33,327 bases of DNA from Bacteroidales bacterium (lineage in GTDB: Bacteria; Bacteroidota; Bacteroidia; Bacteroidales; P3). A program made the position numbers and the translations under genes. The notes beneath the pieces were generated by a model. It worked only from the letters and a program-made list of their open reading frames with translations. It was not told where the DNA came from and made no database searches. The stretch lies in assembly GCA_017522105.1 (NCBI GenBank), contig JAFXAA010000023.1:1-33327 (forward strand). Direction: 5' to 3'. Shown here piece by piece: positions 1 to 23,814 of the stretch (its first letter is position 1; every line of letters starts with the position of its first letter).

Positions 1-97
1 ATAAATATATATTATATATATAAATAGTATTTAGTGGGTGGGGGGTAGTATAAAAAACAACTGTCCCAACCGTCCTACTGTCCCAGGTTATATTTTT

Positions 98-128
98 TTT
101 GCCGATTCAGAATTATTGTGTATCTTTG
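98..128 (+). promoter_or_regulatory. Bacteroidota-type promoter of adk
   Basis: TTTG at 98-101 and TATCTTTG at 121-128 are separated by exactly 19 bases, which fits the Bacteroidota housekeeping sigma consensus (TTTG, N19, TAnnTTTG). The adk start codon follows 22 bases after the -7 box, giving a short leader. The upstream 1-97 is AT-rich at its left end and holds no supported gene. Confidence 0.85.
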
Positions 129-150
129 CAGTTGCAAAATATAAATAATT

Positions 151-804
151 ATGATTAATATTGTTATCTTCGGTGCACCGGGGGCGGGGAAGGGGACCCA
201 GGCAAAGCTGCTGGCAGAGAAATACGACTTCCTGCATATTTCAACCGGTGACCTGCTGCGGCAGGAGGTGGAGCTGCAAACCCCGATGGGACAACGCGCA
301 CAGGCCATCATGAACCGTGGCGACCTGGTGGGCGACGACATTGTGGTGTCGCTGCTGGGGCGCGCGCTGGAGCTGCGGTCGACGCTGCCGGACCCCGACG
401 CTGCGCTCGACCCATGGGACGTGGAGCGGCACGGCCGTCCGCACCGTCCGGAGGGCTGCATCATAGACGGTTTTCCGCGTACGGTGTCGCAGGCGCAGAC
501 GCTGGAGTTCCTCTTCGGGCGCTTGAAGAGAAAGATAGACTGTGTGGTGGCCATCGATGTGCCGAGAGACGAGCTGGTGCGTCGCATCCACGAGCGCGCC
601 GCCATCAGCGGCCGGGCCGACGATACCGAGGAGGTCATCCGACACCGCCTCGACCTCTACGACCAGCAGACCATGCCGGTGCTCGACTACTACCGCGTGT
701 CGGGCCTGCTGGTGACCGTCGACGGCCGCGGCGAGATCTCCGAGACCAACAGCCGCATCTGCCAGACTCTCGAACTGGTGATGCACTTGAAAGCCAAAAG
801 GTAA
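151..804 (+). CDS. adk: Adenylate kinase with a family-unusual insertion
   Basis: Cytosolic enzyme interconverting ATP + AMP and 2 ADP. The P-loop GAPGAGKG lies at residues 8-15, the AMP-binding HISTGDLLR at about 29-37, GFPRT at 107-111, and the short LID segment with GRADDTEE near 154. The LID is the zinc-free short type. The protein has 217 residues, whereas Bacteroides Adk has about 189. The excess is largely an insertion of about 20 residues at roughly 78-102, rich in Pro, Asp and Arg, between the AMP-binding helices and GFPRT. The ATG at 151 is the first start after a consensus promoter. The gene appears monocistronic, because tdh downstream has its own promoter. Confidence 0.95.
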   Translation: MINIVIFGAPGAGKGTQAKLLAEKYDFLHISTGDLLRQEVELQTPMGQRAQAIMNRGDLVGDDIVVSLLGRALELRSTLPDPDAALDPWDVERHGRPHRPEGCIIDGFPRTVSQAQTLEFLFGRLKRKIDCVVAIDVPRDELVRRIHERAAISGRADDTEEVIRHRLDLYDQQTMPVLDYYRVSGLLVTVDGRGEISETNSRICQTLELVMHLKAKR

Positions 805-808
805 GTAT

Positions 809-841
809 TTTGACGATTATTGAATTTATTTTGTATCTTTG
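809..841 (+). promoter_or_regulatory. Promoter of tdh
   Basis: TATCTTTG at 834-841 matches the Bacteroidota -7 box. TTTG at 809-812 lies 21 bases upstream, slightly longer than the ideal 19. The tdh start at 924 leaves a leader of about 75 bases. Confidence 0.7.
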
Positions 842-923
842 CGCTTGTCATTGTGGGGCTTCTGTGCCGTGCAATGATATGATATATTGTGAGATATAAC
901 GAACAAACAAAAAATAGATAACA

Positions 924-1871
924 ATGAAAAAGATACTTATCGTCGGTGCCGGCGGCCAAATTGGCAGCGAGCTGACACGTAACTTGAGAGACATCTATGG
1001 CGACAGCAACGTAGTGTGCAGCGACCTGCGTCCGCTGAAGGGCGACCCCTACGAGCGCGGCCCCGTGGAGCGAATCGACAGCACCCAGATCATGCAGATA
1101 GCCACTGCCGTGAAGCAGTACAACATCGACACCATCTACAACTTGGCGGCCATCCTGAGCGCCACGGCCGAGCTCAACCCCATGCTGGGTTGGAACGTAG
1201 GCATCGGCTCGTTGGTCAACTGCCTCGAGGTGGCCCGCCTCTTCGGCTGCGCCGTCTTCACGCCGAGCAGCATCGGCGCCTTCGGCCCCTCGACGCCGCA
1301 TGTCAACACCCCGCAGGACACCATCCAGCGCCCCAACACCATCTACGGCGTCACCAAGGTCACCGGCGAGCTCCTCTCCGACTACTACTACACCCGCTTC
1401 GGCGTCGACACCCGCTCGGTCCGCTTCCCGGGCCTGATCAGCTACCAGACCCTCCCCGGCGGCGGCACCACCGACTACGCCGTCGAGATCTACTACGCCG
1501 CCGTCAAGGGCGAGAAGTTCGTCTGCCCGCTGAAGAAAGGCACCCTCATGGACATGATGTACATGCCCGACGCACAGAAGGCCATGATTGACATCATGGA
1601 GGCCGACCCCAGCAAGCTGGTGCACCGCAACAGCTTCAACGTCACCGCCATGAGCTTCGGTCCCGAGACCATCTACGAGGTCATCAAGAAGCGCTACCCG
1701 CAGTTTGAGATGGTCTACGAGCCCGAGCCCATCAAGCAGGCCATCGCCGACTCCTGGCCCGACAACATGGACGACAGCTGCGCCCGCAAGGAGTGGGGCT
1801 GGAACCCGCAGTACGACCTGGAGCGCATGACCGACGACATGATCCTCAACCTCAAGAAGAAACTGCTGTAA
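924..1871 (+). CDS. tdh: L-threonine 3-dehydrogenase, SDR type
   Basis: Probable NAD-dependent oxidation of L-threonine to 2-amino-3-ketobutyrate in the cytosol. The Rossmann motif GAGGQIG is at residues 8-14, the active-site segment PSSIGAFGPSTP near 113-124, and the YxxxK pair at Y141/K145 within YGVTK. Family-typical stretches PGGGTTDYAVEIYY, MMYMPDAQ, IADSWP and EWGWNPQYDLERM follow. These separate this SDR-type threonine dehydrogenase from ordinary sugar epimerases, which share the fold. At 315 residues it is full length for the family. The start fits a MKKILIVG N-terminus preceded by an A-rich leader. Its usual partner, the ketobutyrate CoA ligase (kbl), is not in the window. An intrinsic terminator follows at 1936. 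Confidence 0.88.
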   Translation: MKKILIVGAGGQIGSELTRNLRDIYGDSNVVCSDLRPLKGDPYERGPVERIDSTQIMQIATAVKQYNIDTIYNLAAILSATAELNPMLGWNVGIGSLVNCLEVARLFGCAVFTPSSIGAFGPSTPHVNTPQDTIQRPNTIYGVTKVTGELLSDYYYTRFGVDTRSVRFPGLISYQTLPGGGTTDYAVEIYYAAVKGEKFVCPLKKGTLMDMMYMPDAQKAMIDIMEADPSKLVHRNSFNVTAMSFGPETIYEVIKKRYPQFEMVYEPEPIKQAIADSWPDNMDDSCARKEWGWNPQYDLERMTDDMILNLKKKLL

Positions 1872-1935
1872 TTTTTTAGTAGTTAAGTAGACAGTAGATA
1901 AGTAGATAAGGCAATACTGATACAAACCCCAAGCG

Positions 1936-1973
1936 AAGGCTGCCGACCGAAAAGATTGGCAGCCTTCTTTTTC
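1936..1973 (+). terminator. Intrinsic terminator after tdh
   Basis: AAGGCTGCC (1936-1944) pairs perfectly with GGCAGCCTT (1958-1966) and is followed by a T-rich run. It lies about 65 bases past the tdh stop. Confidence 0.85.
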
Positions 1974-2053
1974 GTAAAAAATGTTAAAACCAGCCCCCGC
2001 CGACGCTCCATTTATAATATCAGGATTATTATATATGTAGCGAAGCGCTTTTA

Positions 2054-2551
2054 ATGGCAGACGACAGGACATCACGGTATAGCGAGTTCGACGCGCTGAT
2101 GGCGCGCCACCAGAGGCTCATCAAAGGCCTCTGCTGGTGGTATGCCGGAGGCAACGCCGACCGTGTGGCCGACCTCATGCAGGAGGTGATGGCCGCCTTG
2201 TGGCATTGGCGCCACACGCTGCGCCCCGGCGCCACAGCGCTGCAGGAGCGCGCCTGGGTACACATACGCTGCCGCAGCGTCTTCGAGCACATGCGCCGGC
2301 GCCAGCAGGTGGAGACGGTGGCCATAGAGGCCGTGCAGGATGTGGCCGAAGAGCCGCCGGCAGGACGCGAACAGATAGACCACCTGTCGGCCGACCTCTC
2401 GGCGGCGGAACAGCAACTGTTGGAGCTGGTGCTCGACGGCTACACCGACGGCGAGATAGGCGAGACCATGCGCCTCGCGCCCGGCGAGGCGGCGAGGATG
2501 CACGCTGCGGTGATAGAGAAAATGAAACAGAAAGCAAGGATAACAGAGTAG
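2054..2551 (+). CDS. ECF-like sigma-70 family RNA polymerase sigma factor
   Basis: Small 165-residue protein with the two-domain layout of an extracytoplasmic-function sigma factor. A region-2-like segment sits at about residues 10-75, with DLMQEVMAALWHWR near 39-52 in the place of the core-binding helix. A region-4 helix-turn-helix sits at about 112-160 (LSAAEQQLLELVLDGYTDGEIGETM...), which reads as the -35 recognition domain. Region 2 is degenerate, so its targets cannot be inferred. The two genes downstream encode small membrane proteins, the usual position of anti-sigma partners, so this could be a membrane-stress circuit. No TAnnTTTG promoter is seen upstream. That would fit autoregulation from a non-housekeeping promoter, but this is inference. 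Confidence 0.8.
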   Translation: MADDRTSRYSEFDALMARHQRLIKGLCWWYAGGNADRVADLMQEVMAALWHWRHTLRPGATALQERAWVHIRCRSVFEHMRRRQQVETVAIEAVQDVAEEPPAGREQIDHLSADLSAAEQQLLELVLDGYTDGEIGETMRLAPGEAARMHAAVIEKMKQKARITE

Positions 2552-2583
2552 TTAAGTAGAAGGTAGTTAAGACAAATGAGCTT

Positions 2584-2916
2584 ATGATGGACGAAAAAGA
2601 GATAATACAACTGATTGAGGCCGAGCAGGCGCGGCGCCGAAAGGCCGACGAGGAGCACCTGCGCCACCTTGTCGAGCGGCACACCGACGGCCTCGGCCCC
2701 TGGTGCGCCCGCCGTCGTGCGGTGGTGCGTGCCATCGCTATGGCGCTGCTCGTGCTGCTGCCGACGGGCTGGTACATGATGCTGCCCCAGCGGACGGACG
2801 ACCGGCAGGTGCTCTGCAACGTGCGCGGCGATGAGGCGCTGGTGGTCAACCGCGTCTGCAGCGTCGTGGGCAACTGTGCCGACCGGCAGGTAATCAATAT
2901 AATGGACATGAGATAG
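2584..2916 (+). CDS. Small single-pass membrane protein, candidate anti-sigma partner
   Basis: 110 residues. A charged cytoplasmic N-terminus of about 45 residues (DEKEIIQLIEAEQARRRKADEEH...) is followed by one hydrophobic segment at about 48-67 (AIAMALLVLLPTGWYMML) and a short C-terminal tail with three Cys. I do not recognise a named domain. A helical cytoplasmic head plus one membrane segment, directly downstream of an ECF-like sigma gene, is the usual anti-sigma arrangement, so that role is inferred from context only. ATG codons at 2584 and 2587 are both possible starts. The stop overlaps the next gene by one base. Confidence 0.6.
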   Translation: MMDEKEIIQLIEAEQARRRKADEEHLRHLVERHTDGLGPWCARRRAVVRAIAMALLVLLPTGWYMMLPQRTDDRQVLCNVRGDEALVVNRVCSVVGNCADRQVINIMDMR

Positions 2917-3470
2917 TGATGAAGAAACACGCGCTCATATACATCGGAGTTTTGCTGCTGCTTCTGGCTGCGGTGACGGCCTTCAGGATGCGTTCCGCCG
3001 AGCCGGAGGGCAGCGAGCTGTACCAGCGCTACAAAGATGTGCCTGGTGTGCGCGTGGGCTTCGTCGAGAACTTCCCCGTCAGCGACAGCACATGCTGCGA
3101 TGTCACCGTCTTCGAGGCCTTGACCGACGAGGGGTGGGAGTGGATGCTGGACGAATTCCATCTGCATGAGATGTTTGCCGAATGGAAGCGCATGGACTCC
3201 ATAGCGGTGGCTACTGACGGCCACAAGCCGGATCCGGCATACAGCCTCAACCTCTGGGTCTCGGCGCCGAACCACCCCGAGGTGAGGGGCAGCCTCCTGG
3301 CCGACCCCGGGGCCGACAGCAACGACTGGGTCATCGCCTCGCGCGCCTTCCGCTGGATAGCCGCCTTCCACACCCACAACGAACAACAGCAGAATGGCGT
3401 AGTATACGAATACATGAGGCGTGCCATCAATCAGGAGCGGCCTCCGTATGGCACCTGGAAAAGAAAATGA
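2916..3470 (+). CDS. Hypothetical membrane-anchored periplasmic protein
   Basis: 184 residues. The N-terminal hydrophobic segment (about residues 7-23, LIYIGVLLLLLAAVTAF) is a membrane anchor or an uncleaved signal. The remaining roughly 160 residues are soluble and rich in Trp and acidic residues, with segments such as DEGWEWMLDEFHLHEMFAEWKRMDS. No family is recognised. The start is either GTG at 2916, overlapping the previous stop by one base, or ATG at 2919; ATG is preferred. Tight packing behind the sigma factor and the small membrane protein suggests a three-gene unit in which this is the extracytoplasmic sensor or effector (inference). Confidence 0.6.
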   Translation: MMKKHALIYIGVLLLLLAAVTAFRMRSAEPEGSELYQRYKDVPGVRVGFVENFPVSDSTCCDVTVFEALTDEGWEWMLDEFHLHEMFAEWKRMDSIAVATDGHKPDPAYSLNLWVSAPNHPEVRGSLLADPGADSNDWVIASRAFRWIAAFHTHNEQQQNGVVYEYMRRAINQERPPYGTWKRK

Positions 3471-3521
3471 TACAATAAATATACAATAATCGCGTTATCA
3501 ATCACATAAAGTTATAAAAAC

Positions 3522-5039
3522 ATGAAGAAGATTCTACTGTTAGGATTGATGGGTCTGATGGGCCTGTTTGGCTCCAGGGCTCATGGGCAGATGATTATCG
3601 ACATGTGGAATATGACCACGGGGGTCGACACCACGCTGTGGTACGACATCGACGGTGTGGACTCGGTGATTATCACCGCGGGCGACAAGACGTCGGCCCG
3701 GTCGGGCCTAGTGAATATAGGCTTCCCCTTCACGCTGGGTGTGTCGACCTACAGCCAGTTTTCGACCAATATCAACGGCACGGTGCGTCTGGGCAGTACG
3801 CAGTTGTCGGCCGGTGGCAGCTATTCGAACGCCTTGAACCAGAATAACGGCCCCAAGATAGAGCCGTTCGGTTACCAAGGTCGTTTCGACAACAACTGTT
3901 ATACACGTATGGCGCTGCTGGGCACCGCTGGGCACCGCGTGCTGGTGGTGGAGACAAGGATGAAAGACTACAGTTACTTCAGCGACTCTCTGTATGTGAG
4001 TTTCCAGGTGCAGCTGTTCGAGGCCGGTGGCCTGCGTGTGGTGTACGGCGAGGCCGACTCAGGGGCGGTGTATACCACCACTTCCGCACGCTTGCAGAAC
4101 GGTGTGTCGGCAGGAGTGAATAGCAATAACAAGGATATCATCTTCATCGACTTCGCCACCCACGAGGCGGTGCGCCTCAACACCACTTGCTCGCTTTACA
4201 ACACCGCGGAGTTGTGGCCCGAGAAAGGCCGCTGGTACAACCTGGAGCCCGACGCCTCGCCCTGCCCATATCCAGGCAACATCACCGTGGTGAGCAATAA
4301 TCCCGACAGCACGGTGCTCAGCTGGCCTGCGGTGGCAGGCGCAAGCTACCACCTTACGATTGCCGAAGTAGGTCTCAACACAATCCTCACCGACACCTTT
4401 ATCTGCCTCACGGACATGCTCAACGGCGGCGCCATCTATAACGGTACACTGCAGACAATGTGCGCCGACGGCAGCGAGAGCTACCGCGTGCGTGAGTTCT
4501 CGTTCACCACCGCCTGTGGCACGGTGCATCAGATGCCGTGGATGGACGACTACCAGCTGGCCGCCGGCGACGCCTGCTGGCAGAAGCCCTACACCACCAG
4601 CGCCCGCAGCTGGCGACGCGTGTCGAGCGGCAACAACTACTATATGAGTGTGCCCAACGGCTACCATACAACAACCTACAACGAGTGGCTTGTGTCGCCG
4701 TCCGTGGTGCTGCCCGACACGGTGGGCCTCACGCTGGGCTGGTGGTATAAGAGCAGCAAGATCAGCAATGTGGCGCCGCAAGTGCGGGTGCGCCTGCTGG
4801 TGTGCGACACCAGCGACGAGGTCGACACCTCGGCTGCATGGGTGACGCTATGCACGATAGACCAATACGAGCAGTATTTCCAGCAGCATTACGCTATTCT
4901 CGACGCCTGGGCGGGCCACCGTGTGCGTGTGGCCTTCCAGCGCGTGGGGCAGGGTGGGGGAACCTGCGACGTGGACAATGTGGGCATCGAGGTGTGCATG
5001 CAACCGTCGGTGGTGCTGGAAGCAGCGGCCAGGGTGTAG
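3522..5039 (+). CDS. N-terminal part of a giant T9SS adhesin-like protein, ended by in-frame TAG
   Basis: 505 residues. A signal peptide (residues 1-23, MKKILLLGLMGLMGLFG then SRAHGQ) leads into a beta-rich domain of about 220 residues. An FN3-like domain follows at about 247-330, and then the first jelly-roll ('choice-of-anchor J', cleaved-adhesin-like) module, opening with MPWMDDYQ and ending with an FQRVGQGGGTCDVDNVGIEV segment. The frame stops at TAG 5037-5039 shortly into the following Ig-like module and continues in the same frame from 5040 to 9140. As it stands this product would lack the T9SS sorting tail and would not be anchored through that system. It is best read as the first quarter of one gene of about 1,870 codons. 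Confidence 0.85.
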   Translation: MKKILLLGLMGLMGLFGSRAHGQMIIDMWNMTTGVDTTLWYDIDGVDSVIITAGDKTSARSGLVNIGFPFTLGVSTYSQFSTNINGTVRLGSTQLSAGGSYSNALNQNNGPKIEPFGYQGRFDNNCYTRMALLGTAGHRVLVVETRMKDYSYFSDSLYVSFQVQLFEAGGLRVVYGEADSGAVYTTTSARLQNGVSAGVNSNNKDIIFIDFATHEAVRLNTTCSLYNTAELWPEKGRWYNLEPDASPCPYPGNITVVSNNPDSTVLSWPAVAGASYHLTIAEVGLNTILTDTFICLTDMLNGGAIYNGTLQTMCADGSESYRVREFSFTTACGTVHQMPWMDDYQLAAGDACWQKPYTTSARSWRRVSSGNNYYMSVPNGYHTTTYNEWLVSPSVVLPDTVGLTLGWWYKSSKISNVAPQVRVRLLVCDTSDEVDTSAAWVTLCTIDQYEQYFQQHYAILDAWAGHRVRVAFQRVGQGGGTCDVDNVGIEVCMQPSVVLEAAARV

Positions 5040-5051
5040 GCCGGCGACACG

Positions 5052-8000
5052 GTGGCGGTGCCTTCCGTGCTGGCCCGCGGCGTGCTGAGCAACCCTGTCT
5101 ACGACTGGTATTCCACGATGGAAGACCAGGGTCTGGCCACACGAATTGCCGCCGCCGACACGCTGCGGCTGGTCTATCTGGCTTCGGGTGTCGACACCGT
5201 CACCCTGACGCTCACCACCGACTACGGCACCGCCACGGCCACGGCGGTGATTGTGGTAAAGGACTGCCGGCCGGTGACGCTCTTCCCGTGGAGCGAGGGC
5301 TTCGAATATGGTCTCGACTGCTGGGAGACACCGACGGGCTATCGCAGCTGGACCACCACCGACAGCTACGAGCACGGTGGGGCCTACTGCCTGAAGTCGA
5401 ACACAACCAGTAGCCAGAGCAGTCTCATCGTCTCGCAGGCGGTCGTGGTACCGTCGGATGCCTATATGCTGCGGTTGGGGCTTTGGGGCAGATTGATAGC
5501 CAGCAGCACCTCGGTCTACAGCAATGTCCGACTATTGGTCGCCGGGGCCGACTGTAGCGATTGGAGCACCGCCACAGAGCTTGGCACAGCGAGCGTCAAT
5601 GTGCAATACCGCTACTTCGAGTTCCCGCTCGATGCCTATGCGGGCCAGACAGTGCGCTTCGGACTTCGACATACGGATGCAAACAGGGGTGCTTATGTCG
5701 ACGATATATCCATACGCTACACGCGCGAGCCTGTCGTCAGCCTCGCCACGTCGGCAGAGCGGCTCTACGGCGAGGACACCGTCACCGCATCGGTGACCCT
5801 CACTGAGGGCGACACGGTGGGCATCAGCTACCTGTGGTCGTCCACCATGGCCGACCACGGACCGGCCGACTATATCGGCGGCGGGGCACAGATGCGCATC
5901 GCCTATCATGACACAGGGCTTGACACCCTTGTGGTCACCGTCAGCAATGCCTATGGCTCGGCCACGGATACCGCTGTAGTGCGCGTGTGCGCTGTGCAGG
6001 ATACCCTGCCGTATGTGGCCGACTTCGGCAACGACCTGCCCTGCTGGCAGGTGCTCGACGGCACGTGCAGCGTCCACAGCAGCGGCTACCTGAGCTTCGA
6101 GGACTGGCCCACCGCGGTGGCCACGCCGCCGGTGTGGATACCCGACGACGGCAATGTGGTGCTGGAGTACGATTGCGCCTACAGCTTCTACTACGGCAGC
6201 ACGATGGTGATGGTCACCACCGACATGGTCTCCTTCGACACCCTCAGCGTCATCCCCTTCACCAACGGTACCCATCCCAGCACCCGCATACCCCTTGGCG
6301 CCTATGCCGGACAACGCATCCGCGTGGTCTTCAAGGCCACGGGTCAGTTCCTGCAGTACTACCTGACCCATGTGAACATACGCTATGCCCTCGAGCCGGT
6401 TGTGCAGGCCGTGGCCGACGACGACTACTTCCCCGGCACGCCGGTGACCCTCACGGCCTCGCTGCTGGAGGGCGACACCGTGAACCTCACCTACTCGTGG
6501 GCCTCCGCCATGACCCAGCGCGGCGACGCCACGCTGACCTTCGACGGCGGTCCGCAGGCGACCCTCGTCCCATCGGTTGGCGGTCCGGACACCGTCACCG
6601 TGTGGGCCACCAACAACTACGGCACCGACAGCACCACCATAGTGGTCAATATCAAGCCCTGCGCCACAGTGGACTCGCTGCCGTGGGTGGAGGACTTCAG
6701 CAACCAGTTCACCTGCTGGTGGCAGCCCGCGGGGAGCCAATGGTCGCCTGACAATACAGGCATTATGGCGTGCGTTATCAACAGCCCGACGACGGGCGAC
6801 AACTGGCTCATTTCGCGCGCCATCGACCTGCCCACGCTGCCCTCGGCAGAAGGCGAGGGCATGCAGCTGTGGTGGGATGCCGCCGCCATCTATGCCAACA
6901 GTCATACCTACAGCGTATGGATCACCACGGGTGACTACCGCGACACCGGCAGCTACACTCAGCTTGCCACCTACAGCGGGAACCTGCCTACATACAACAG
7001 CGGCTGGCGCACCCCACGTGTGGACCTCAGCGCCTATGCGGGAGATACGGTACACCTGGCTTTCCGCTACCAGACGCAGTATTACGAGGTCTCCAGCATT
7101 CCCGGCATCCTGGCCATCGACAGCGTGCGCATCTTCGACACGCGGCCTCCGCAGGTCGCCATCGTGCCGCCCGCGCGCTGCTTTGTGGACGACACGGTGG
7201 CCTACTGCCCCGAACACGTCCACGGCGTCCGCAGCGGCATGACTCGCACCTGGCGTTCCACCATGGCACTGCAGGGGCTGGCCACGACATGGGTCGTCGA
7301 CTCGCTCTTCTATGTGGTCTACCATGCCGCCGGCTACGACACCGTCAGCCTTGTAGCCACCAACGCCTACGGCAGCGACACGGCCATGGCGTGGCGCCAG
7401 GTGAAGGACTGCCCTGCCGTCACGGTGCCGTGGTATGAAGACTTTGAGGTAGTCAACCCCTGCTGGTCAGGGTCGTGGACGCCAGACTACATTACATACA
7501 CGTGGCTCGATTCCACCTCCCACGTGATGCGTTCGACGCCCAACAGCTGGTATGCTTCGCCGTGGATTGACCTGCCCGACACCACGGGGCTGCAACTGAT
7601 GTGGAACAAGAATGGCAATGCCAATAGCTTCATGAAGATATTCGTTTCGCCTACAGGCAGCATTGAGCCTGCCGACTTCACCGACACCCTCCTTTACAGA
7701 GAAACCCCCAACGGGTTTGACTCGCTGCCGCTCGATGCCTATGCCGGACGGCGAATCCGCGTAGCCTTTGCGCAGCTGGCGAGCAGCAACAACTCCGACT
7801 CCTACGTCCTCGACGATGTCCGCGTCGACTATAACCGCGCTGCGCCGCAGGTCTCGCTCACGGCCCCGCTCTTTGCCACATCCTTTGGTGACGCCATTAC
7901 GGCTACGGCCACCCTGGGCAACATTGCCCCGGGAGTTACATACAGTTGGAGCTCCACCTTTGGAGTGGTGACCGCCATGGGCGCCCAATGCCGCATCAGC

Positions 8001-9140
8001 TATACTGTGGCGGGTGAAGATACCATCACGGTCGTTGTCAGCAACCCCTACGGCAGCGACACCGCATTGGCAGTGGTGACGGTGTACGATTGTGGCAGCA
8101 TGACGACGGTACCATTCTTTGAAGACTTCAGCAACATTACAACCACCACATATCGTGTCCGTGGATGGCTGCCTCCCTGCTGGAATGCAACTTGGAACGG
8201 CGACACTCTCGGCCTTGCTCCGCATGTCATCACCACGGGTGGATACCAATGGATAGGCGACATACCCGACAACGCCCTACTGATGCAGGCCGGCACCTCG
8301 ACAGGTTATGGTTCCCTGGCCGAAGTGGTGCTGCCTCGCTTTGCCGACAGTCTGCATCGCCTAATGATGGCCTTCGACTACCGCTTCGAGATCAACACCG
8401 GCACCCTTGTGGTAGGCTACTACGACGACACAGTCTTTACCGCTGTGGACACCCTAGCGAGACACACCGGCAATTATCGTCGCGACACGGTGTCATTCGC
8501 CATGCACAGCATTGCCAACAATCCCCACATAGCCATACGCTGGCAAAGCAATAACGGCTCATTTTTTGCTGTCGTCATAGACAATATAGAAGTATTTGTA
8601 GACAGCACACTCATTCCGCTAACGCCAGACACCGTCTGGCGCACGGTCACAGTACACATGCTGCTAGATAATGGCGACACCCTCTTCGAGGCTGACGTTG
8701 TCTCCGTGACAGGAGCAGGCAGTTATCCCGACAGCACTCTGGTGACACTCACCGCCTACTATGATAATTACTACCCCTATTTCTGGTATTGGGTGACACC
8801 TGCCAACGACACACTGTATGACAACCCCTACAGCTTCGTCGTCACCTCCGACACCGTCATCAACGCCATCTTCGGTCCCATGTGCGTGGGTATCGACGGC
8901 ACGGAAAGCGCTGCGCCCGATGTCGCCATACACCCCAACCCTGCCACAGGCGATGCCTATGTAAGTGTCGGTGTACCCTCGACAGTCACTGTCGTCGACC
9001 TGCAGGGCCGCACGGTGCTGCAGCCGACGCACGTGGCCTCCACGCTCTGCATTCAGCAGGGCACACTGCCGAAGGGCATCTACTTCGTCAGCGTCAGCAA
9101 CAGTGTCGGCACCGTGGTGAAGAAGCTCGTCATACAGTAG
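5052..9140 (+). CDS. C-terminal part of the giant T9SS protein (repeated Ig-like/jelly-roll modules and sorting tail)
   Basis: Same frame as 3522-5039. The nominal GTG at 5052 is inside a domain, and there is no signal peptide, so this is a gene continuation and not an independent gene. It carries most of the first Ig-like module and four further ones, starting near 5730, 6400, 7150 and 7850. These alternate with five jelly-roll modules opening with FPWSEGF (about 5283), LPYVADF (6007), LPWVEDF (6676), VPWYEDF (7424) and VPFFEDF (8107). A domain resembling divergent InlB-type beta repeats lies at about 8650-8870. The end is a type A T9SS sorting domain (IHPNPATGDAYV..., LQGRT, GIYFVSVSN, KKLVIQ), used to cross the outer membrane and become surface-anchored. 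Likely role: surface adhesion or glycan binding. A terminator follows at once. Confidence 0.85.
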   Translation: MAVPSVLARGVLSNPVYDWYSTMEDQGLATRIAAADTLRLVYLASGVDTVTLTLTTDYGTATATAVIVVKDCRPVTLFPWSEGFEYGLDCWETPTGYRSWTTTDSYEHGGAYCLKSNTTSSQSSLIVSQAVVVPSDAYMLRLGLWGRLIASSTSVYSNVRLLVAGADCSDWSTATELGTASVNVQYRYFEFPLDAYAGQTVRFGLRHTDANRGAYVDDISIRYTREPVVSLATSAERLYGEDTVTASVTLTEGDTVGISYLWSSTMADHGPADYIGGGAQMRIAYHDTGLDTLVVTVSNAYGSATDTAVVRVCAVQDTLPYVADFGNDLPCWQVLDGTCSVHSSGYLSFEDWPTAVATPPVWIPDDGNVVLEYDCAYSFYYGSTMVMVTTDMVSFDTLSVIPFTNGTHPSTRIPLGAYAGQRIRVVFKATGQFLQYYLTHVNIRYALEPVVQAVADDDYFPGTPVTLTASLLEGDTVNLTYSWASAMTQRGDATLTFDGGPQATLVPSVGGPDTVTVWATNNYGTDSTTIVVNIKPCATVDSLPWVEDFSNQFTCWWQPAGSQWSPDNTGIMACVINSPTTGDNWLISRAIDLPTLPSAEGEGMQLWWDAAAIYANSHTYSVWITTGDYRDTGSYTQLATYSGNLPTYNSGWRTPRVDLSAYAGDTVHLAFRYQTQYYEVSSIPGILAIDSVRIFDTRPPQVAIVPPARCFVDDTVAYCPEHVHGVRSGMTRTWRSTMALQGLATTWVVDSLFYVVYHAAGYDTVSLVATNAYGSDTAMAWRQVKDCPAVTVPWYEDFEVVNPCWSGSWTPDYITYTWLDSTSHVMRSTPNSWYASPWIDLPDTTGLQLMWNKNGNANSFMKIFVSPTGSIEPADFTDTLLYRETPNGFDSLPLDAYAGRRIRVAFAQLASSNNSDSYVLDDVRVDYNRAAPQVSLTAPLFATSFGDAITATATLGNIAPGVTYSWSSTFGVVTAMGAQCRISYTVAGEDTITVVVSNPYGSDTALAVVTVYDCGSMTTVPFFEDFSNITTTTYRVRGWLPPCWNATWNGDTLGLAPHVITTGGYQWIGDIPDNALLMQAGTSTGYGSLAEVVLPRFADSLHRLMMAFDYRFEINTGTLVVGYYDDTVFTAVDTLARHTGNYRRDTVSFAMHSIANNPHIAIRWQSNNGSFFAVVIDNIEVFVDSTLIPLTPDTVWRTVTVHMLLDNGDTLFEADVVSVTGAGSYPDSTLVTLTAYYDNYYPYFWYWVTPANDTLYDNPYSFVVTSDTVINAIFGPMCVGIDGTESAAPDVAIHPNPATGDAYVSVGVPSTVTVVDLQGRTVLQPTHVASTLCIQQGTLPKGIYFVSVSNSVGTVVKKLVIQ

Positions 9141-9165
9141 CCAACCCCTATACTATCAACACACT

Positions 9166-9200
9166 ATGCGCCACCGTCCGAGGTGGCGCATTTCTTTTTT
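9166..9200 (+). terminator. Terminator of the T9SS adhesin-like gene
   Basis: ATGCGCCACC (9166-9175) and GGTGGCGCAT (9182-9191) form a perfect 10-bp stem with a 6-base loop, followed by TTCTTTTTT. Confidence 0.9.
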
Positions 9201-9231
9201 GCGCCTATGTGGAAAAATCTTTGTATCTTTG
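9198..9231 (+). promoter_or_regulatory. Promoter of the C69 dipeptidase gene
   Basis: TATCTTTG at 9224-9231 is a perfect -7 box. The nearest TTTG (9198-9201) is 22 bases upstream and lies in the preceding terminator's T-run, so the -33 element is weak. The start codon lies 33 bases downstream of the -7 box. Confidence 0.7.
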
Positions 9232-9263
9232 CACCCAGAAAATCAGATAAAACAACACACAAT

Positions 9264-11024
9264 ATGAAAGTCAACCGTATTTTAGCAGCAGGCTTTCTGG
9301 GCGTAGCCCTCTTTGCGGCCAGCACCGCCGACGCCTGCACCAACTTCCTGTTCACCAAGGGTGCCACCTGCGACGGCAGCACCATGATCACCTACGCCGC
9401 CGACAGCCACACCCTCTACGGCGAGCTCTACTACCGCAAGGCGGCCACCTACCCCGCCGGCACCATGTTCCAGGTCGTCGACTGGGACACCGGCACCAAG
9501 CTCATCCAGATCCCCCAGGTGGCGCAGACCTACAGCGTCGTGGGCAACATGAACGAGCACCAGCTGGCCATCGGTGAGACCACCTACGGCGGCCGCGCTG
9601 AGCTGGCCAAGGAGATTGAGGGCGGCATCGACTACGGCTCGCTCATCTACCTCACCCTGCAGCGCGCCCGCAACGCCCGCGAGGCCATCCAGGTCCTCGC
9701 CGGCTTCATGAAAGACTACCCCTACCACAGCGAGGGCGAGAGTTTTTCTATCTGCGACCCCAACGAGGTGTGGATCCTCGAGCTCATCGGCAAGCGCCCC
9801 GGCACCGTGAAGCCCGAGCTGGCCAAGAAGCTCAAATACAAATACACCGACGGTGCCGTGTGGGTGGCACGCCGGATCCCCGACGGCTACGTCAGCGGCC
9901 ACGCCAACCAGGCCCGCATCACCCAGTTCCCCCAGGAGCCCAAGAAGTTCCAGAAGGCCAAGGGCAAAGGCCTCCACAGCGTCATCAGCAGCAAGCACCT
10001 CGACTACCTCTTCGAGCCTGAAGTGGAGTGCGTCTACAGCTCGGAGGTCATCACCTACGCCCGCGCCTGCGGCTGGTACGACGGCAAGGACGAGGACTTC
10101 TCTTTCTGCGACACCTATGCCCCGCTGACCTTCAGCGGCCTGCGCGGCTGCGACGCCCGTGTCTACGCCATGTTCAACCGTGTGGCCAGCGGCATGCAGC
10201 GCTATGAGAAATACGCCATGGGCGACGCCAACGCCGAGCGTCTCCCCCTATGGGTCAAGCCCGACCGCCAGGTCAGCCTGCACGAGGTGATGAACCTCAT
10301 GCGCGACCACTATGAGGGCACCTCCATGGACATGACCAAAGACCTCGGCGCAGGCCCCTTCAACTGCCCCTACCGCTGGCGTCCCATGGGCTTCGAGGTT
10401 GACGGCCACTCCTACATCCACGAACGCGCCACCTCCACCCAGCAGACCGGCTTCAGCTTCGTGGCCCAGTGCCGCAGCTGGCTGCCCGCCAAGGTCGGCG
10501 GCATCCTCTGGTTCGGCGTCGACGACACCTACTCCACCGTCTACTGCCCCATGTACTGCGGCATCACCAAAATCCCCGAGTGCTTCCGCCAGGGCAACGG
10601 CGACATGCTGACCTACAGCGAAACCTCCGCCTTCTGGCTCTTCAACCGCGTCACCAACTTCGTCTACAGCCGCTACAGCGACATGATTAAAGACCTGCAG
10701 AAAGTGCAGACGCAACTTGAGAAAGACTATATCCGCGACGTGCGCAAGTTCGACGACCGCGCCAAGCAGAGCGACGGCGACGCCCTCGCCGAGCAGCTCA
10801 ACGACTTCTCCAACCGCGCCGCCGAGCGCATGATGAAAGAGTGGAACAATCTTGACCGCTTCCTCCTCGTCAAATACATCGACGGCAACATCAAGAAGGA
10901 AAAGGACGGCAAGTTTGAGCGCACCGAGACCGGCAACGCGGTCTTCCCCGAGCAGCCCAGCTACCGCCAGGAGTGGTACCGCATGATAGTCAAAGACCAC
11001 GGCGACGTCATCCGCGAGAAATAA
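9264..11024 (+). CDS. C69 family dipeptidase, secreted
   Basis: 586 residues from the ATG at 9264. The open frame extends further upstream, but only through the promoter and terminator, so the upstream start is rejected. Residues 1-24 form a signal peptide, and the mature end would begin at Cys25 (ACTNFLFTKGATCDGSTMITY). The C69/PepD family is an Ntn-hydrolase family in which this Cys is the nucleophile exposed by processing. Conserved family stretches include NEHQLAIGETTYGGR, LIYLTLQRARNAREAI, SFSICDPNEVWILELIGK and WVARRIPDGYVSGHANQARI. The C-terminal helical tail of about 100 residues is charged. The likely role is periplasmic or surface dipeptide hydrolysis in peptide nutrition. It is flanked by its own promoter and terminator. 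Confidence 0.92.
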   Translation: MKVNRILAAGFLGVALFAASTADACTNFLFTKGATCDGSTMITYAADSHTLYGELYYRKAATYPAGTMFQVVDWDTGTKLIQIPQVAQTYSVVGNMNEHQLAIGETTYGGRAELAKEIEGGIDYGSLIYLTLQRARNAREAIQVLAGFMKDYPYHSEGESFSICDPNEVWILELIGKRPGTVKPELAKKLKYKYTDGAVWVARRIPDGYVSGHANQARITQFPQEPKKFQKAKGKGLHSVISSKHLDYLFEPEVECVYSSEVITYARACGWYDGKDEDFSFCDTYAPLTFSGLRGCDARVYAMFNRVASGMQRYEKYAMGDANAERLPLWVKPDRQVSLHEVMNLMRDHYEGTSMDMTKDLGAGPFNCPYRWRPMGFEVDGHSYIHERATSTQQTGFSFVAQCRSWLPAKVGGILWFGVDDTYSTVYCPMYCGITKIPECFRQGNGDMLTYSETSAFWLFNRVTNFVYSRYSDMIKDLQKVQTQLEKDYIRDVRKFDDRAKQSDGDALAEQLNDFSNRAAERMMKEWNNLDRFLLVKYIDGNIKKEKDGKFERTETGNAVFPEQPSYRQEWYRMIVKDHGDVIREK

Positions 11025-11456: not shown

Positions 11457-11492
11457 CCCCCATCGACGGATAAACCGTCGAAGGGGTCTTTT
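11457..11492 (+). terminator. Terminator after the SMR gene
   Basis: CCCCATCGACGG (11457-11468 region) pairs with CCGTCGAAGGGG (11475-11486) with one mismatch and a short ATAAA loop, then TCTTTT. Confidence 0.75.
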
Positions 11493-11502
11493 CTGCATGC
11501 AT

Positions 11503-11591
11503 CCCCTACGGAGCCCCTACGGAGTCCCTACGGCCGTTCTTCAGTGGAAGGCCGTAGGAGAGCCGTAGGGACTCCGTGGGGGCTCCGTACC
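11503..11591. repeat. Intergenic palindromic repeat, copy 1
   Basis: A GC-rich element built of an 11-base tandem unit (CCCCTACGGAG, twice, then TCCCTACGGCC) that folds back on its inverted partner (AGCCGTAGGGACTCCGT, GGGGGCTCCGTAC). The left 48 bases (11503-11550) are identical to 23715-23762. The hairpin stem is about 27 bp with a single mismatch in the outer part. It sits in the gap downstream of the SMR gene terminator. No ORF is supported inside. Confidence 0.85.
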
Positions 11592-11637
11592 GGCCCGGTG
11601 GCGGCAGGCACGGCAATTAACATTTTTTTGTATTCGC

Positions 11638-14103: not shown

Positions 14104-14781
14104 ATGAATCTGACACTTGACATAGGCAACACGGCTGTGAAATGGGCCACCTTCGAGGGGCGCACGCTGTTGGAGCAGGGACACGACCTGCCCACCGACA
14201 AGCTGACCGAGGCCGAGGCCGTGCTGGCCTGCGCGAGCGGCAAGGTGCCGGAGACGGCGTATGACCTTCCGCTGCTGACGGCGGAGCGCACGCTGCCCAT
14301 ACGCCTTGGCTACAAGACTCCGCAGACGCTTGGCGCCGACCGCATAGCGGCGGCCTGCGGCGCCTGGAGCCTGCACCGCGGCGAGGCATGCCTGGTGATA
14401 GATGCCGGCACGTGCATCACCGTGGACTTCATAGACGACGGCGGCACCTATCACGGCGGCGCCATCATGCCGGGCTTGCAGATGAATTTGCAGGCGCTGC
14501 ATACTTTTACGGCGAAATTGCCGTTAGTGGATATTACGGGTGTCACCAAGGCGCCTGTGCTGGGCCGCACGACGGAGGAGAGCATCGTGGCCGGAACGCT
14601 GGGAGCCACACTGTTGGCCTTGGCGGGCTATGTGGCCGCCTACCGCGAGAAGAGCCCCGCACTGCGCGTGTTGCTCACCGGAGGCGACGCCCCGCGCCTG
14701 GTGGCAGCGGGAGCCTCGGGATGGGAACACCAGCCGCTGCTGACACTCATGGGACTGAATGAGATATTGTTAAACGAATGA
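14104..14781 (+). CDS. coaX: Type III pantothenate kinase
   Basis: First step of coenzyme A synthesis: ATP-dependent phosphorylation of pantothenate. It has the ASKHA-fold motifs DIGN at residues 6-9, GADR at 77-80, DAGTCITVDF near 100-109, GGAIMPGLQMNLQAL near 118-132, the TEESIVAGTLGA helix, and LTGGDA as the second phosphate loop. At 225 residues it is slightly shorter than typical (about 240-255), but all motifs are present. Its stop overlaps the start of the next gene as ATGA, so the two are translationally coupled. Confidence 0.93.
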   Translation: MNLTLDIGNTAVKWATFEGRTLLEQGHDLPTDKLTEAEAVLACASGKVPETAYDLPLLTAERTLPIRLGYKTPQTLGADRIAAACGAWSLHRGEACLVIDAGTCITVDFIDDGGTYHGGAIMPGLQMNLQALHTFTAKLPLVDITGVTKAPVLGRTTEESIVAGTLGATLLALAGYVAAYREKSPALRVLLTGGDAPRLVAAGASGWEHQPLLTLMGLNEILLNE

Positions 14782-16100
14782 GAAACAAGATACTGATAAT
14801 AGGCATTGCTTTTCTGGCGGCTTTGACAGGCCAGAGTGCCGACGCGCAAAACAGTTTCAACCTGCCCTATTCGCAATATGGGCTTGGCAGCGTGGAGCAG
14901 CCGTTCAACATGCCGATGGCGTCAGCGATGGGAGGGGTGGTGTACACGCGCTCCAACAGCAATGCCATCAACCCCTTCAACCCAGCCTCGTACGGTGGCA
15001 TAGGGCTTGAGAGCTTTGTGTTCGACATGGGCCTCAACGTGCAGATGAACCGCCTGACGAGCGACGGGCGCACTGTCAAGTCGGCCGACGGCAACGTGGG
15101 CTACCTGGCCGTGGGGTTGCCCATCACGCGGTGGTGGAAGATGGCTGCGGGGCTGATGCCGTACTCTTCAGTGTCCTACGTCACAAGAATACCCGCCACG
15201 ACTGGCGGCATGGCCACGCAGTTTGAAGGCCGAGGCGGCGTCAACCAGATATTCGCCGGTATGGCTTTCAACGTGCTTGACGGCAAGAAGGACAAGTTGC
15301 AGGCTGGTTTCAACGTGAAGTACCTGACGGGAAGTGTGGTAAGGCTGATGTCGTACACCACCACGGACACGTCGCTCCACCTCATCAACTCGCGCCACGC
15401 CCAGGAACTGAGGCTCAGCAATGTGTTGCTGGACTTCGGTGTGCAGTACCGTCGTGCGCTGGGTGAGAAGTACACGCTTGGTGCAGGCGTGGTGTACAAG
15501 CCGTATATGGACATGCAGGTCAAGGAAGTGTCGTTGATATACACGTACCACGCCACCTCCGAGGCATTGCTCGATACGGTGTTCCCTGCCAGCGGCGAGG
15601 ATGCAGAACTGCGCAGTCGCCTGGAGCAGGCGCATACTGTCGGGGTGGGGGTGAGCCTGGAGCGCAACGGTTTGTGGCAGGTGGCTGCCGATGCAGCCTT
15701 CTCCGGATGGCAGGGTTTGCGCCATACACCTGTGGCCGGTCGTAGCGTCTTTGGCGAGAGTCCCATGCGCGGCGGAGCCTACAGCCGCTATGCCGTGGGC
15801 TTTGAGAAGCTGGTAAACGCGGAGGCCTCCAACTACTTCGGCCGTATGGGCTGGAGCGCGGGTGCCAGTATGGAGCAGGGTCTGCTCTACCTGACAATGC
15901 CTAATGGCGAGAGCCGTGTGGATCGTTGGAGCATCGGTGCTGGAGCCACGTTGCCAATGCGCCGCGGCCGTTCGCTGCTCACCATCAGCGTGGGCTACAG
16001 CAGCATGGGTGACAAGGCTGTGATGCAGCGCCGCTGCGTGACATTCGGCGTGGCCGTGAGCAGCTGCGAACGCTGGTTTGTGAAACGCAAATACAATTAA
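14778..16100 (+). CDS. Outer-membrane beta-barrel protein of the coaX-lptC locus
   Basis: 440 residues. A signal peptide (1-23, ending SADAQ) precedes a long series of alternating amphipathic strands with frequent aromatic girdle residues, typical of an outer-membrane barrel. The opening NSFNLPYSQYGLGSVEQPFNMPMASAMGG and the stretch AINPFNPASYGGI resemble the transport-type (FadL/OmpP1-like) barrels of Bacteroidales. In that group such a gene lies between coaX and the TPR/lptC pair. The substrate is unknown. The start is fixed by the ATGA overlap with coaX. The C-terminal strand SSCERWFVKRKYN is not a classical Phe-ending barrel strand. Confidence 0.75.
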   Translation: MRNKILIIGIAFLAALTGQSADAQNSFNLPYSQYGLGSVEQPFNMPMASAMGGVVYTRSNSNAINPFNPASYGGIGLESFVFDMGLNVQMNRLTSDGRTVKSADGNVGYLAVGLPITRWWKMAAGLMPYSSVSYVTRIPATTGGMATQFEGRGGVNQIFAGMAFNVLDGKKDKLQAGFNVKYLTGSVVRLMSYTTTDTSLHLINSRHAQELRLSNVLLDFGVQYRRALGEKYTLGAGVVYKPYMDMQVKEVSLIYTYHATSEALLDTVFPASGEDAELRSRLEQAHTVGVGVSLERNGLWQVAADAAFSGWQGLRHTPVAGRSVFGESPMRGGAYSRYAVGFEKLVNAEASNYFGRMGWSAGASMEQGLLYLTMPNGESRVDRWSIGAGATLPMRRGRSLLTISVGYSSMGDKAVMQRRCVTFGVAVSSCERWFVKRKYN

Positions 16101-16168
16101 GGCAGCAATAAAAAGGCCGCAGGCGATACTAAAGCATAAAGTACGAAACAAACAAAAAAGAAATAACA

Positions 16169-17527
16169 ATGAAAACACTCAGAACTTTAACCATCGGAAC
16201 TCTCTTGGCAGCAGCAGCGTTGCCCGCCGTGGCTCAGATGGAGAAATGGGGGTGCAACGACGAGGCGCTCCAGAACCCGCAGCCCATGATGGAGGCGGTG
16301 TCGCTCTACCAGGAGAACGTGAAACAGTATAAGGCATCGAAGGACCAGCGCTACCTGCAGGAAGCCTATCCTCAGTGGAAGACCATCGTGGCCAACTGCC
16401 CAAAGCAGAGCAAGAACCTCTACATCAACGGTGCCAATATCCTGAAGGTGATGATTGCCAACGCCAAGACCGAAGAGGAGAAGAAGGCTTACATAGACGA
16501 AATGATGGCCATGTATGACACACGTATTGCCAAATACGGCGAGGCTGCCAAATATACCGCCAAAAAGGCCAACGAGCTGGAGGAGATACTCAAGGAGGAC
16601 GGGCTGCAGCAATACTACGCCCTCTACAGCGAGGCGGTGAAGATTGGCGGCGATGACCTGGAGGCTGCCTACCTGGTGAAATACATGGAGGCCACCATCA
16701 ACTATGTGCGCGCCGGCTATGCCGAGCCCACCTTGGTGGTCGACAACTACGATATAGCCAGCGACCTGCTGGAAGACGAGTTGCAGAAGAACGCCGCCGA
16801 CAGCGTCAAGGCCGCCACCATACGCGGCTATATCGCTGGCGTCGAGGCTGCATTCTCGCCTTACGCCACATGCGACCAGCTGGTGGAGATATACAGCAAG
16901 AAGTTTGAGGCTGACCCCGAAAATGTCGACCTGTTGAAGAAAATCACCGGCATCATGATGCGCAAACGTTGCACAGACCAGGATCTCTTCTTCCGCGCCA
17001 CGGAGAACCTCTACCGCTTGGAACCCAGTCCTGCCACGGCAATGCGTATGGGTCAGATGTGCATCTCCAAGAAACAGTATGGCGACGCTGTCAAGTACCT
17101 GAACGACGCCATTCAGGGTGTCAGCGGCAAGGACAAGTACAACGCCTACCTCTTCCTCGGCTATGCCCACAGTGGCGCCAACAACTACAGCGCTGCACGT
17201 ACGGCCTACAACAATGCCGCCGCTGCCGATGCCACGAAGGGTGAACCCTATATGAGGATAGCAATGCTTTATGGCTCCACGTTCCGCACTGCATCGGAAG
17301 ACAACGTTGGCGGGCGCAGCGCATACTGGGCTGCGGTGGACAAGCTGCAGCGCTCCAAGGCGGTGGAACCTACCGAAGAGAATATAGAGGCTTGCAACCA
17401 ACTCATTAACAGCTACTCGGCTCACTACCCCTCGAAGACTGACGCCTTCATGGCTGGCATGGAGAACGGACAGCGCTTCACGGTGCCGGGATGGATAGGT
17501 GAAACAACAACGGTAAGAACACGTTAG
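16169..17527 (+). CDS. Secreted tetratricopeptide repeat protein
   Basis: 452 residues with a signal peptide (1-22, ending LPAVAQ). The mature protein is almost entirely helical. The N-terminal part (residues 23-150) has long helices with Lys/Glu. TPR-like units are clearest at about 280-370, for example SPATAMRMGQMCISKKQYGDAVKYLNDAI and NAYLFLGYAHSGANNYSAARTAYNNA. TPR scaffolds bind partner proteins, and the partner here is unknown. Its fixed place between an outer-membrane barrel and lptC suggests an envelope-assembly role (inference). There is a 68-base gap before it without a -7 box, and lptC follows after 5 bases. Confidence 0.8.
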   Translation: MKTLRTLTIGTLLAAAALPAVAQMEKWGCNDEALQNPQPMMEAVSLYQENVKQYKASKDQRYLQEAYPQWKTIVANCPKQSKNLYINGANILKVMIANAKTEEEKKAYIDEMMAMYDTRIAKYGEAAKYTAKKANELEEILKEDGLQQYYALYSEAVKIGGDDLEAAYLVKYMEATINYVRAGYAEPTLVVDNYDIASDLLEDELQKNAADSVKAATIRGYIAGVEAAFSPYATCDQLVEIYSKKFEADPENVDLLKKITGIMMRKRCTDQDLFFRATENLYRLEPSPATAMRMGQMCISKKQYGDAVKYLNDAIQGVSGKDKYNAYLFLGYAHSGANNYSAARTAYNNAAAADATKGEPYMRIAMLYGSTFRTASEDNVGGRSAYWAAVDKLQRSKAVEPTEENIEACNQLINSYSAHYPSKTDAFMAGMENGQRFTVPGWIGETTTVRTR

Positions 17528-17532
17528 GCAAC

Positions 17533-18117
17533 GTGAGTACATACAACAACGTCAAGCCGATAGGGGCGTGCCGATGGGTTACGCTCCTATCGGCTTGTCT
17601 GATTATGGCGATGCCAACGGCCTGCAAGAGCGACAAAGACATGCTTCCGGAGGATTGGAGCGATTCTGCCAGCCAGCAGGTGCGCGACGCGCGCATACAG
17701 CGCACCGAGGGCGGCAAACTGCAGCTTGAGCTCAATGCTCCGCTCATACAGAAATTCGAGCGGCCAGTGGCCAAAACCTTATACAGAAGCCTCGGCGGAA
17801 AAAGGGTGTCGATGATGTTGTACGAGAACGGAGTGGAGAAAAAAACATTCATAGAGGCCGACTATGCTGTCTCGTATGATGACCGCGACCTGATGGAGGC
17901 TCATGACAGCGTGGTGGTGATAGATTTCAATGCCGGCGATACCATATACCTGCAGGACCTGATATGGAATTCTGCGGAAGACCGCATATACTCCGAGCAT
18001 CCTGTACGTGCCAAGAACGGCAACCGCATCACCTTGGGCGACGGGTTTGTGAGCGATCAACGCTTGGAGAACATGCAGATTATCCGCCAACGCGGAGTGA
18101 TAGAATTTGAAGACTGA
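17533..18117 (+). CDS. lptC: LPS export periplasmic protein LptC
   Basis: 194 residues. LptC receives lipopolysaccharide from LptBFG in the inner membrane and passes it to the periplasmic LptA bridge. The N-terminal hydrophobic segment (about 14-30) ends in PTACKSDKD, a loose lipobox that could give a lipoprotein anchor at Cys31. The LptC beta-jellyroll follows, with RIQRTEGGKLQLELNAP, FIEADYAVSYDDRDLMEAHDSVVV and IWNSAEDRIYSEHPVRAKNGNRITLGDGFVSDQRLE. The last of these is the characteristic C-terminal LptC stretch. The GTG at 17533 is chosen because it keeps the complete signal. lpxD starts 5 bases after the stop. Confidence 0.88.
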   Translation: MSTYNNVKPIGACRWVTLLSACLIMAMPTACKSDKDMLPEDWSDSASQQVRDARIQRTEGGKLQLELNAPLIQKFERPVAKTLYRSLGGKRVSMMLYENGVEKKTFIEADYAVSYDDRDLMEAHDSVVVIDFNAGDTIYLQDLIWNSAEDRIYSEHPVRAKNGNRITLGDGFVSDQRLENMQIIRQRGVIEFED

Positions 18118-18122
18118 ACAGA

Positions 18123-19136
18123 ATGCAACTTACTGCTAAAGAACTGGCCCGCAAGGTGAATGGCACCATAGAGGGCGACGAGAACACCAAGGTATGGAAG
18201 CCTTGCAAGATAGAAGAGGGCTGTGAAGGGGGAATTACTTTCCTCGGCAACCCCAAGTACACGCACTACATCTATGAGAAGCAGGCGTCGATAGTCATTG
18301 TACGCAAAGACTTCGTGCCGGAGCACCCCGTGGGGTCTACCCTCATACGTGTAGATAACCCGTATATAGCTGTGGCCGTGTTGTTGCATACCTTCAACGA
18401 GCGCACCAAACCGCCCAAGGGACGGTCGTGGCGCAGCCACGTGGGACGCGGCAGTCATGTTGGCAAGCGCTGCTACATGGGGCCGTATGCCGTAGTGGGG
18501 CGCCATACCCAGATAGGCAATGACGTGAAGATATACCCCAACGCATGTATTGGAGACAACTGCAAGATTGGCGACGGCACAATAATCTACGCTGGCGTGA
18601 AAATTTATGAGGGTGTAGAGATAGGACGCAACTGCATCATCCATGCCGGTGCTGTGATAGGCGCCGACGGGTTCGGCTTCGCGCCCACAGGCGACGGTGG
18701 CTGGAACAAGATTGACCAGATTGGCAACGTAGTGCTGGAGGATAATGTGGAAGTTGGCGCCAACACATGCATAGACCGTGCCACCATGGGCTCCACCATC
18801 CTGCACCAAGGTGTTAAAGTGGACAACCTATGCCAGGTGGCACACAACGTGGTCATAGGGCGCAATACCGCCATGGCGTCGCAGGTGGGCATAGCTGGCA
18901 GTTGCAAAGTCGGCGAAGAATGTATCATTGCCGGCCAGGCAGGATTGGTGGGCCACATATCCGTTGGCGACCATGTCACTATCGGCGCCCAAAGCGGCGT
19001 GACCCATTCTGTGGCCGACAATGCCACCATCTTTGGCAGTCCTGCCACCGATGCGCCCAAACGCCGCAAGATAGAGGTGCTGCTGCGCAACATTGACAAG
19101 ATTGTGGAACGCATAGACAAGCTTGAGAGCAGATGA
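18123..19136 (+). CDS. lpxD: UDP-3-O-acylglucosamine N-acyltransferase
   Basis: Third step of lipid A synthesis: transfer of a 3-hydroxyacyl chain from ACP to UDP-3-O-acylglucosamine. The N-terminal uridine-binding domain (about 1-100) has ITFLGNPKYTHYIYE. A left-handed beta-helix of hexapeptide repeats spans about 105-300 (IGDNCKIGDGTIIYAGVKI and similar). The catalytic His is His241 in CQVAHNVVIG. GAVIGADGFGFAP and CIDRATMGST are LpxD signatures. The C-terminal helix (about 310-337) supports the trimer. In many Bacteroidota lpxD is followed by an lpxC-fabZ fusion. Here an SGNH gene overlaps its stop (ATGA) instead. Confidence 0.95.
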   Translation: MQLTAKELARKVNGTIEGDENTKVWKPCKIEEGCEGGITFLGNPKYTHYIYEKQASIVIVRKDFVPEHPVGSTLIRVDNPYIAVAVLLHTFNERTKPPKGRSWRSHVGRGSHVGKRCYMGPYAVVGRHTQIGNDVKIYPNACIGDNCKIGDGTIIYAGVKIYEGVEIGRNCIIHAGAVIGADGFGFAPTGDGGWNKIDQIGNVVLEDNVEVGANTCIDRATMGSTILHQGVKVDNLCQVAHNVVIGRNTAMASQVGIAGSCKVGEECIIAGQAGLVGHISVGDHVTIGAQSGVTHSVADNATIFGSPATDAPKRRKIEVLLRNIDKIVERIDKLESR

Positions 19137-23702: not shown

Positions 23703-23714
23703 TTTTCCACCGAG

Positions 23715-23814
23715 CCCCTACGGAGCCCCTACGGAGTCCCTACGGCCGTTCTTCAGTGGAAGACCGAAATTCGGCCGTAGGGGCTCCGTAGGGGGGCCGT
23801 AGGGACTCCGTACC
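23715..23814. repeat. Intergenic palindromic repeat, copy 2
   Basis: Same element as 11503-11591, with the first 48 bases identical. The right half differs: ACCGAAATTCGGCC, then GTAGGGGCTCCGTAGG, then GGCCGTAGGGACTCCG. The right half thus carries two complementary arms. It fills the gap between the convergent MBOAT and DUF2723 genes, where a long hairpin could stop transcription from both sides. Confidence 0.85.

Follow-up and report, generated by a model that had tools for sequence, protein, structure and literature searches.

An in-frame TAG (positions 5037–5039) splits a long reading frame of an uncultured rumen Bacteroidales species, and raises the question of whether it separates two genes, is read as a sense codon, or breaks a single gene, and, if the last, how recently. 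The window (the whole stretch of DNA analysed, 33,327 nucleotides) is an entire contig of a 2.28-Mb draft genome in 38 contigs (92.26% complete, 0.24% contamination), which is probably a metagenome bin. Translation of 3522–9140 gave this TAG as the single internal stop, with no second stop or frameshift elsewhere in the gene, bearing out the description of 3522–5039 and 5040–9140 in an earlier note, made by a model from the sequence, as one frame. The Ig-like module motifs quoted there were likewise located: ARV-stop-AGDTV (residue 503), ERLYGEDTV (746), DYFPGTPV (968), RCFVDDTV (1219) and TSFGDAI (1453). The features are as follows, with related genomes denoted by G numbers and their loci by L numbers:

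3522..5039, + strand: 5′ part of the interrupted gene, 505 codons, with a signal-peptide-like start (by eye), an N-terminal domain, a jelly roll, the first residues of an Ig-like module, and the TAG
about 4578–4985, + strand: one choice-of-anchor-J jelly roll in the 5′ part (NCBIfam; model of the G007 equivalent)
5037..5039, + strand: the in-frame TAG, opposite sense codons in all 17 distinct relatives aligned
5040..9140, + strand: 3′ part in the same frame, 1366 codons, with additional modules (jelly-roll and Ig/PKD-like) and a T9SS type A sorting domain
8928..9137, + strand: T9SS type A sorting domain, PF18962 / TIGR04183 (Pfam and NCBIfam profiles)
4245..8621, + strand: central block, G007-like and with no blastn match to G008, containing the TAG (blastn and protein blocks)
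5325..5711, + strand: divergent jelly-roll module that follows the first of the Ig-like modules (search of 120 genus genomes)
9138..9140, + strand: the gene's own terminal stop, a TAG common to G008, followed by a terminator-like hairpin (by eye)

The jelly roll before the stop scores 33.2 bits against the NCBIfam choice-of-anchor-J model (cut-off 30); beyond the stop lie three further choice-of-anchor-J stretches, a PKD domain and the sorting domain (NCBIfam/Pfam), the last scoring 35.7 bits for PF18962 (cut-off 27) and 41.9 bits for TIGR04183 (cut-off 23). Neither Pfam nor NCBIfam detected a peptidase domain in 3522–9140. The gene thus has the C-terminal sorting domain of a T9SS type A cargo, but its signal-peptide-like start and sorting domain do not share one uninterrupted frame, as the TAG separates them. 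The product is a large modular T9SS-type surface protein, probably an adhesin or a binding protein.

A structure model of the G007 segment equivalent to the stop region (mean pLDDT 85.5) predicts a jelly roll and, after it, an Ig-like domain; residue 168, the counterpart of the stop in the alignment, falls in a short strand (166–168) with which the Ig-like domain begins. The best Foldseek match (2c9a; E 2.9e-9) is the MAM-Ig pair of the animal receptor phosphatase mu, in which a jelly-roll domain also precedes an Ig-like domain; however, as identity is 12% and the two domains together superpose poorly (rmsd 12.3, TM 0.41–0.43), we regard this as a resemblance of fold and do not claim common descent. 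The cleaved adhesin domains K1 (4itc) and K3 (3m1h) of Kgp rank 9 and 17 among the PDB matches, with TM scores by target of 0.69 (rmsd 3.3) and 0.67 (rmsd 3.6), respectively; similar scores are reached by jelly rolls of the MAM, ephrin-receptor and carbohydrate-binding kinds. The Pfam match of the jelly roll is InhA-like MAM, the cleaved-adhesin Pfam model giving no match at E 0.001, and a sequence profile search of solved structures returned nothing at E 0.1.

The arrangement of the gene in relatives was examined at 30 loci, using residues 401–505 before the stop and the first 230 after it as the two test pieces. Both pieces lie in one open frame at 26 of these loci, representing 17 distinct genomes; at the four loci that were dropped (L021, L022, L023 and L071) the downstream piece alone passed the cut-off. 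The open frames of the relatives reach 2342 codons in G007, 2084 in G008 and 2048 in G012. Eight of the relatives carry names, all of uncultured Bacteroidales or Bacteroidetes, with six labelled RUG, which we take to denote rumen genomes, and one from red deer. As the frame is open across the site in all 17, the aligned sequences indicate that the stop is no gene boundary and that one gene is interrupted; it is also more than chance, since in related species a single open frame encodes this protein. The natural boundary between two genes that the earlier note had named as grounds for abandoning its reading was found in none of them. An in-frame GTG at 5052, just 3′ of the TAG, could in principle allow the 3′ part to start anew there or nearby, but we consider two separate genes barely credible: besides the single gene of the relatives, the 3′ part would lack a signal peptide, and no motif of the TAnnTTTGCA promoter type (at most one mismatch) occurs in 880–9223, the whole gene likewise having none close upstream.

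The residue in the column aligned with the stop varies considerably among the 17 genomes (R in six, H in four, D and M in two each, and Y, N and Q in one each), with the more distant alignments uncertain; many residues are thus tolerated at the position. The proposal that an aromatic residue belongs at this position consequently stands for the sister modules of the same protein and fails for the orthologues. An ancestral Tyr, also proposed, is plausible, as Tyr is found in the nearest orthologue (alone among the 17) as well as in sister module 2, but it is not established, given how variable the column is.

The stop codon usage of the genome indicates how TAG is read. The genome yielded 29 sorting-domain matches (28 above the cut-off), and the terminal codon of each T9SS gene, taken as the first in-frame stop after the match, is TAA in 19, TGA in six and TAG in four, the present gene among the last. 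Release factor RF1 is present (497 bits, cut-off 423), and none of the 43 tRNA genes found, which were matched one by one with ARAGORN calls, has a CUA anticodon, although in a genome that is 92% complete a tRNA could be missing. TAG is thus an ordinary terminator in this genome, and recoding is rejected on the tRNAs, RF1 and terminal stops together. Nor is there an unusual RNA fold in the 104 bases from the stop onward (z -0.55 against shuffles), giving no structural signal for readthrough, and whilst a programmed readthrough site should be conserved, none of the 17 relatives has a stop here. The earlier note had allowed that the stop might be tolerated by readthrough and had proposed a search for an amber suppressor tRNA; the search produced no candidate, and the tolerance it was meant to explain finds no support. 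Functional readthrough yielding a short periplasmic and a long surface form would account for the constraint that persists downstream of the stop, but in view of these observations is very improbable. The comparison with crAss-like phages, in which genetic code 15 with TAG read as Gln is reported (PMC9523058), goes no further than an in-frame TAG in a Bacteroidetes-linked sequence: here a single TAG interrupts a gene of the host, other genes end in TAG, and the tRNAs found include none with a CUA anticodon.

Lone in-frame stops also occur within large related frames of other drafts of the genus, at least as a TAG in G020 (L152) and a TAA in G025 (L063); among the matches listed there is in addition one in G126 with one TGA, and the three together give no rate. 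That the stops are of three kinds speaks for ordinary mutation or error over a mechanism specific to TAG.

The age of the stop was assessed from substitutions on either side of it. Relative to G007, dN/dS is somewhat higher 3′ of the stop (0.445 for the first 1209 aligned codons, a stretch that includes the divergent module) than 5′ of it (0.318). When changes were assigned to lineages, the ratio of nonsynonymous to synonymous changes after the stop was similar in the window and G007 lineages: 43/47 versus 63/51 for codons 218–1180 with G012 as outgroup (p 0.32), and 18/22 versus 20/30 for codons 218–690 with G010 (p 0.67). For the first 90 codons after the stop the corresponding counts were 14/8 versus 17/13 with G012 (p 0.78) and 7/12 versus 16/11 with G010 (p 0.23). 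Before the stop, at residues 245–505, the window lineage has an excess of nonsynonymous changes (22/15 versus 19/33 with G012, p 0.052; 21/12 versus 19/32 with G010, p 0.025), which may hint at a changed constraint there and is not the pattern to be expected had the 3′ part long been silent.

When neutral evolution was simulated with 47 synonymous changes, 5.1–6.1 further stops were expected, whereas none is seen (P 0.000–0.017 for kappa 1–4). With the lineage counts, this absence of decay 3′ of the stop rules out an old pseudogene, and the earlier claim that the remainder of the gene has not decayed is supported by both measures. Since a recent stop would postdate most of the divergence from G007, the selection test excludes an old stop only; a recent one is compatible with the data, as 30–59% of runs with 5–10 synonymous changes show no further stop. 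The stop is therefore either very recent or an assembly error, the two leading explanations, both of them offered by the earlier note.

Very probably, then, a single nonsense codon interrupts an otherwise intact modular T9SS surface-protein gene, having arisen as a very recent mutation, as a strain variant caught in the consensus, or as a base error of the assembly. A real recent nonsense mutation in this strain, with the surface protein lost or reduced, is to our minds just on the probable side: TAG is a normal stop in this genome, the gene has no other lesion, and surface genes of this kind vary strongly within the genus. A base error or a mixed-strain consensus, with the TAG absent from the dominant strain and the gene intact, is a serious contender that we hold somewhat short of probable. 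It is favoured by the fragmented draft, presumably binned from a metagenome, by the isolation of the TAG in a constrained gene, and by the lone stops in at least the three other drafts named above. Against it, substitution errors are rare in assembled short-read contigs, and of the 26 T9SS genes for which a verdict was reached in this genome, the present one alone is interrupted. The other 25 have an in-frame start resembling a signal peptide (23 recognised by script and two by eye); of the remaining three among the 29, one runs off its contig and two are unsettled in the stretch taken.

Were the stop real, translation would end with residue 505, shortly past an entire jelly-roll domain, and that strain would lose the surface protein. 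The signal-peptide-like start lies 5′ of the TAG and the sorting domain 3′ of it; in agreement with what had been proposed for the truncated product, it would be exported to the periplasm without the domain required for the outer-membrane step. As residue 505 falls just behind a whole domain in the model, such a periplasmic fragment could be stable. Bacterial surface-protein genes are known to occur as nonsense alleles and pseudogenes, which the present gene resembles in having one premature stop and being otherwise intact; unlike a slippage switch, the site has no run or short tandem repeat (by eye). A literature search for premature stop codons or pseudogenes in metagenome-assembled Bacteroidetes found no paper. 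Taken alone, the stop is probably a private mutation or error that changes little, and it serves as a caution that recoding is only weakly supported when a draft genome offers a lone in-frame stop.

More informative than the stop is the mosaic composition of the gene that contains it, which the earlier note had overlooked. In a blastn comparison with loci of four relatives, G008 matches the window at 51–3157 (91.5% identity), 3522–4244 (95.3%) and 8622–11024 (91.3%), and has no match between 4245 and 8621; G007 matches at 3587–5324 (83.9%) and 5712–8584 (91.7%). Protein identity in 40-residue blocks gave the same picture, with G012 reaching up to 97% in some blocks and exceeding G007 in some. 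Identity therefore changes sharply within the gene, 3522–4244 and 8622–9140 being G008-like and 4245–8621 G007-like and in places G012-like. Over a background region at 14104–23702, G008 has 81% identity and G007 70–78%, although a conserved epimerase reaches 88% in G007, 90% in G019 and 93% in G012. As identity to G007 in the middle of the gene exceeds this background, the middle is best read, from these identities, as exchanged between species, leaving direction and donor aside; the 4.4-kb middle may have more than one source. The TAG falls within this middle, in the initial portion where similarity is lower, and precedes the divergent module at 5325–5711 by 285 bases.

This module sits between two G007-like stretches. 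A search with 5280–5699 of 120 genus genomes, outside this genome, yielded no close match (34% identity for the best-scoring hit, 40% for a lower-scoring one), and hence no donor for the module.

An assembler chimera in the middle, which a draft genome with two changes of identity inside one gene might suggest, is improbable: it would have to be a double chimera in frame at both ends, the middle is 84–92% identical to G007 and not about 99%, and identity to other relatives such as G012 also shifts block by block. On the preferred reading of an exchange between species, the gene would have been assembled with its ends conserved and its module-bearing middle replaced, and sets of adhesin modules would pass between rumen Bacteroidales species. 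The signal, the sorting tail and the flanking genes would stay put during the exchange, a pattern comparable with that reported for surface-protein domains of P. gingivalis (PMC5266723). There, the cleaved-adhesin domains of gingipains undergo domain rearrangement and allelic exchange, and the mosaic formed by variants of these domains and other surface proteins does not track the SNP-based phylogeny. Like the gingipains (PMC5266723), the product is a Bacteroidales surface protein with repeated jelly-roll domains, probably of an adhesin, but Pfam and NCBIfam show no peptidase domain, jelly rolls and Ig-like modules alternate, and the exchange would be between species of an uncultured rumen genus. 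It is conceivable, though we think it quite unlikely, that an evolutionary switch exists, of which the nonsense allele represents one state and in which surface proteins of the genus are silenced by point stops and restored or altered when homologous exchange replaces the middle of the gene; silent and active alleles would then circulate together in the rumen genus.

The end of the gene looks like a real one, as G008 shares its terminal TAG (9138–9140) at the homologous junction and in both genomes the next feature is a hairpin with a T run (at about 9166–9200 here; by eye in both). In the window, 627 open codons follow this TAG in the same frame, into the next gene; a readthrough fusion was considered and the open stretch taken as chance, since G008 has a further in-frame stop soon after its TAG, the hairpin follows in both, and the real start of the next gene probably lies further on.

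The genes flanking the G008 copy within its locus are in the same order as in the window, with 90–99% protein identity and one exception at 53%. Upstream of the gene, 2054–3467 contains a sigma-factor-like gene (Sigma70_r2) and two small genes with no Pfam match, the second of which is the exception, at 53% identity to its syntenic G008 copy when its neighbours have about 95%. Several repeats were also observed in the window. Two related GC-rich inverted-repeat elements built of CCCCTACGGAG units lie at 11491–11601 and 23696–23817; at 31116–31270 a unit of about 41 bases is repeated in tandem, the copies having related cores of the GATGATGCG-like type. Short AGTAGTTAAGTAGA-type repeats are located outside the long genes, at 1878–1923 and 2547–2579, with more copies in the four related genomes searched.
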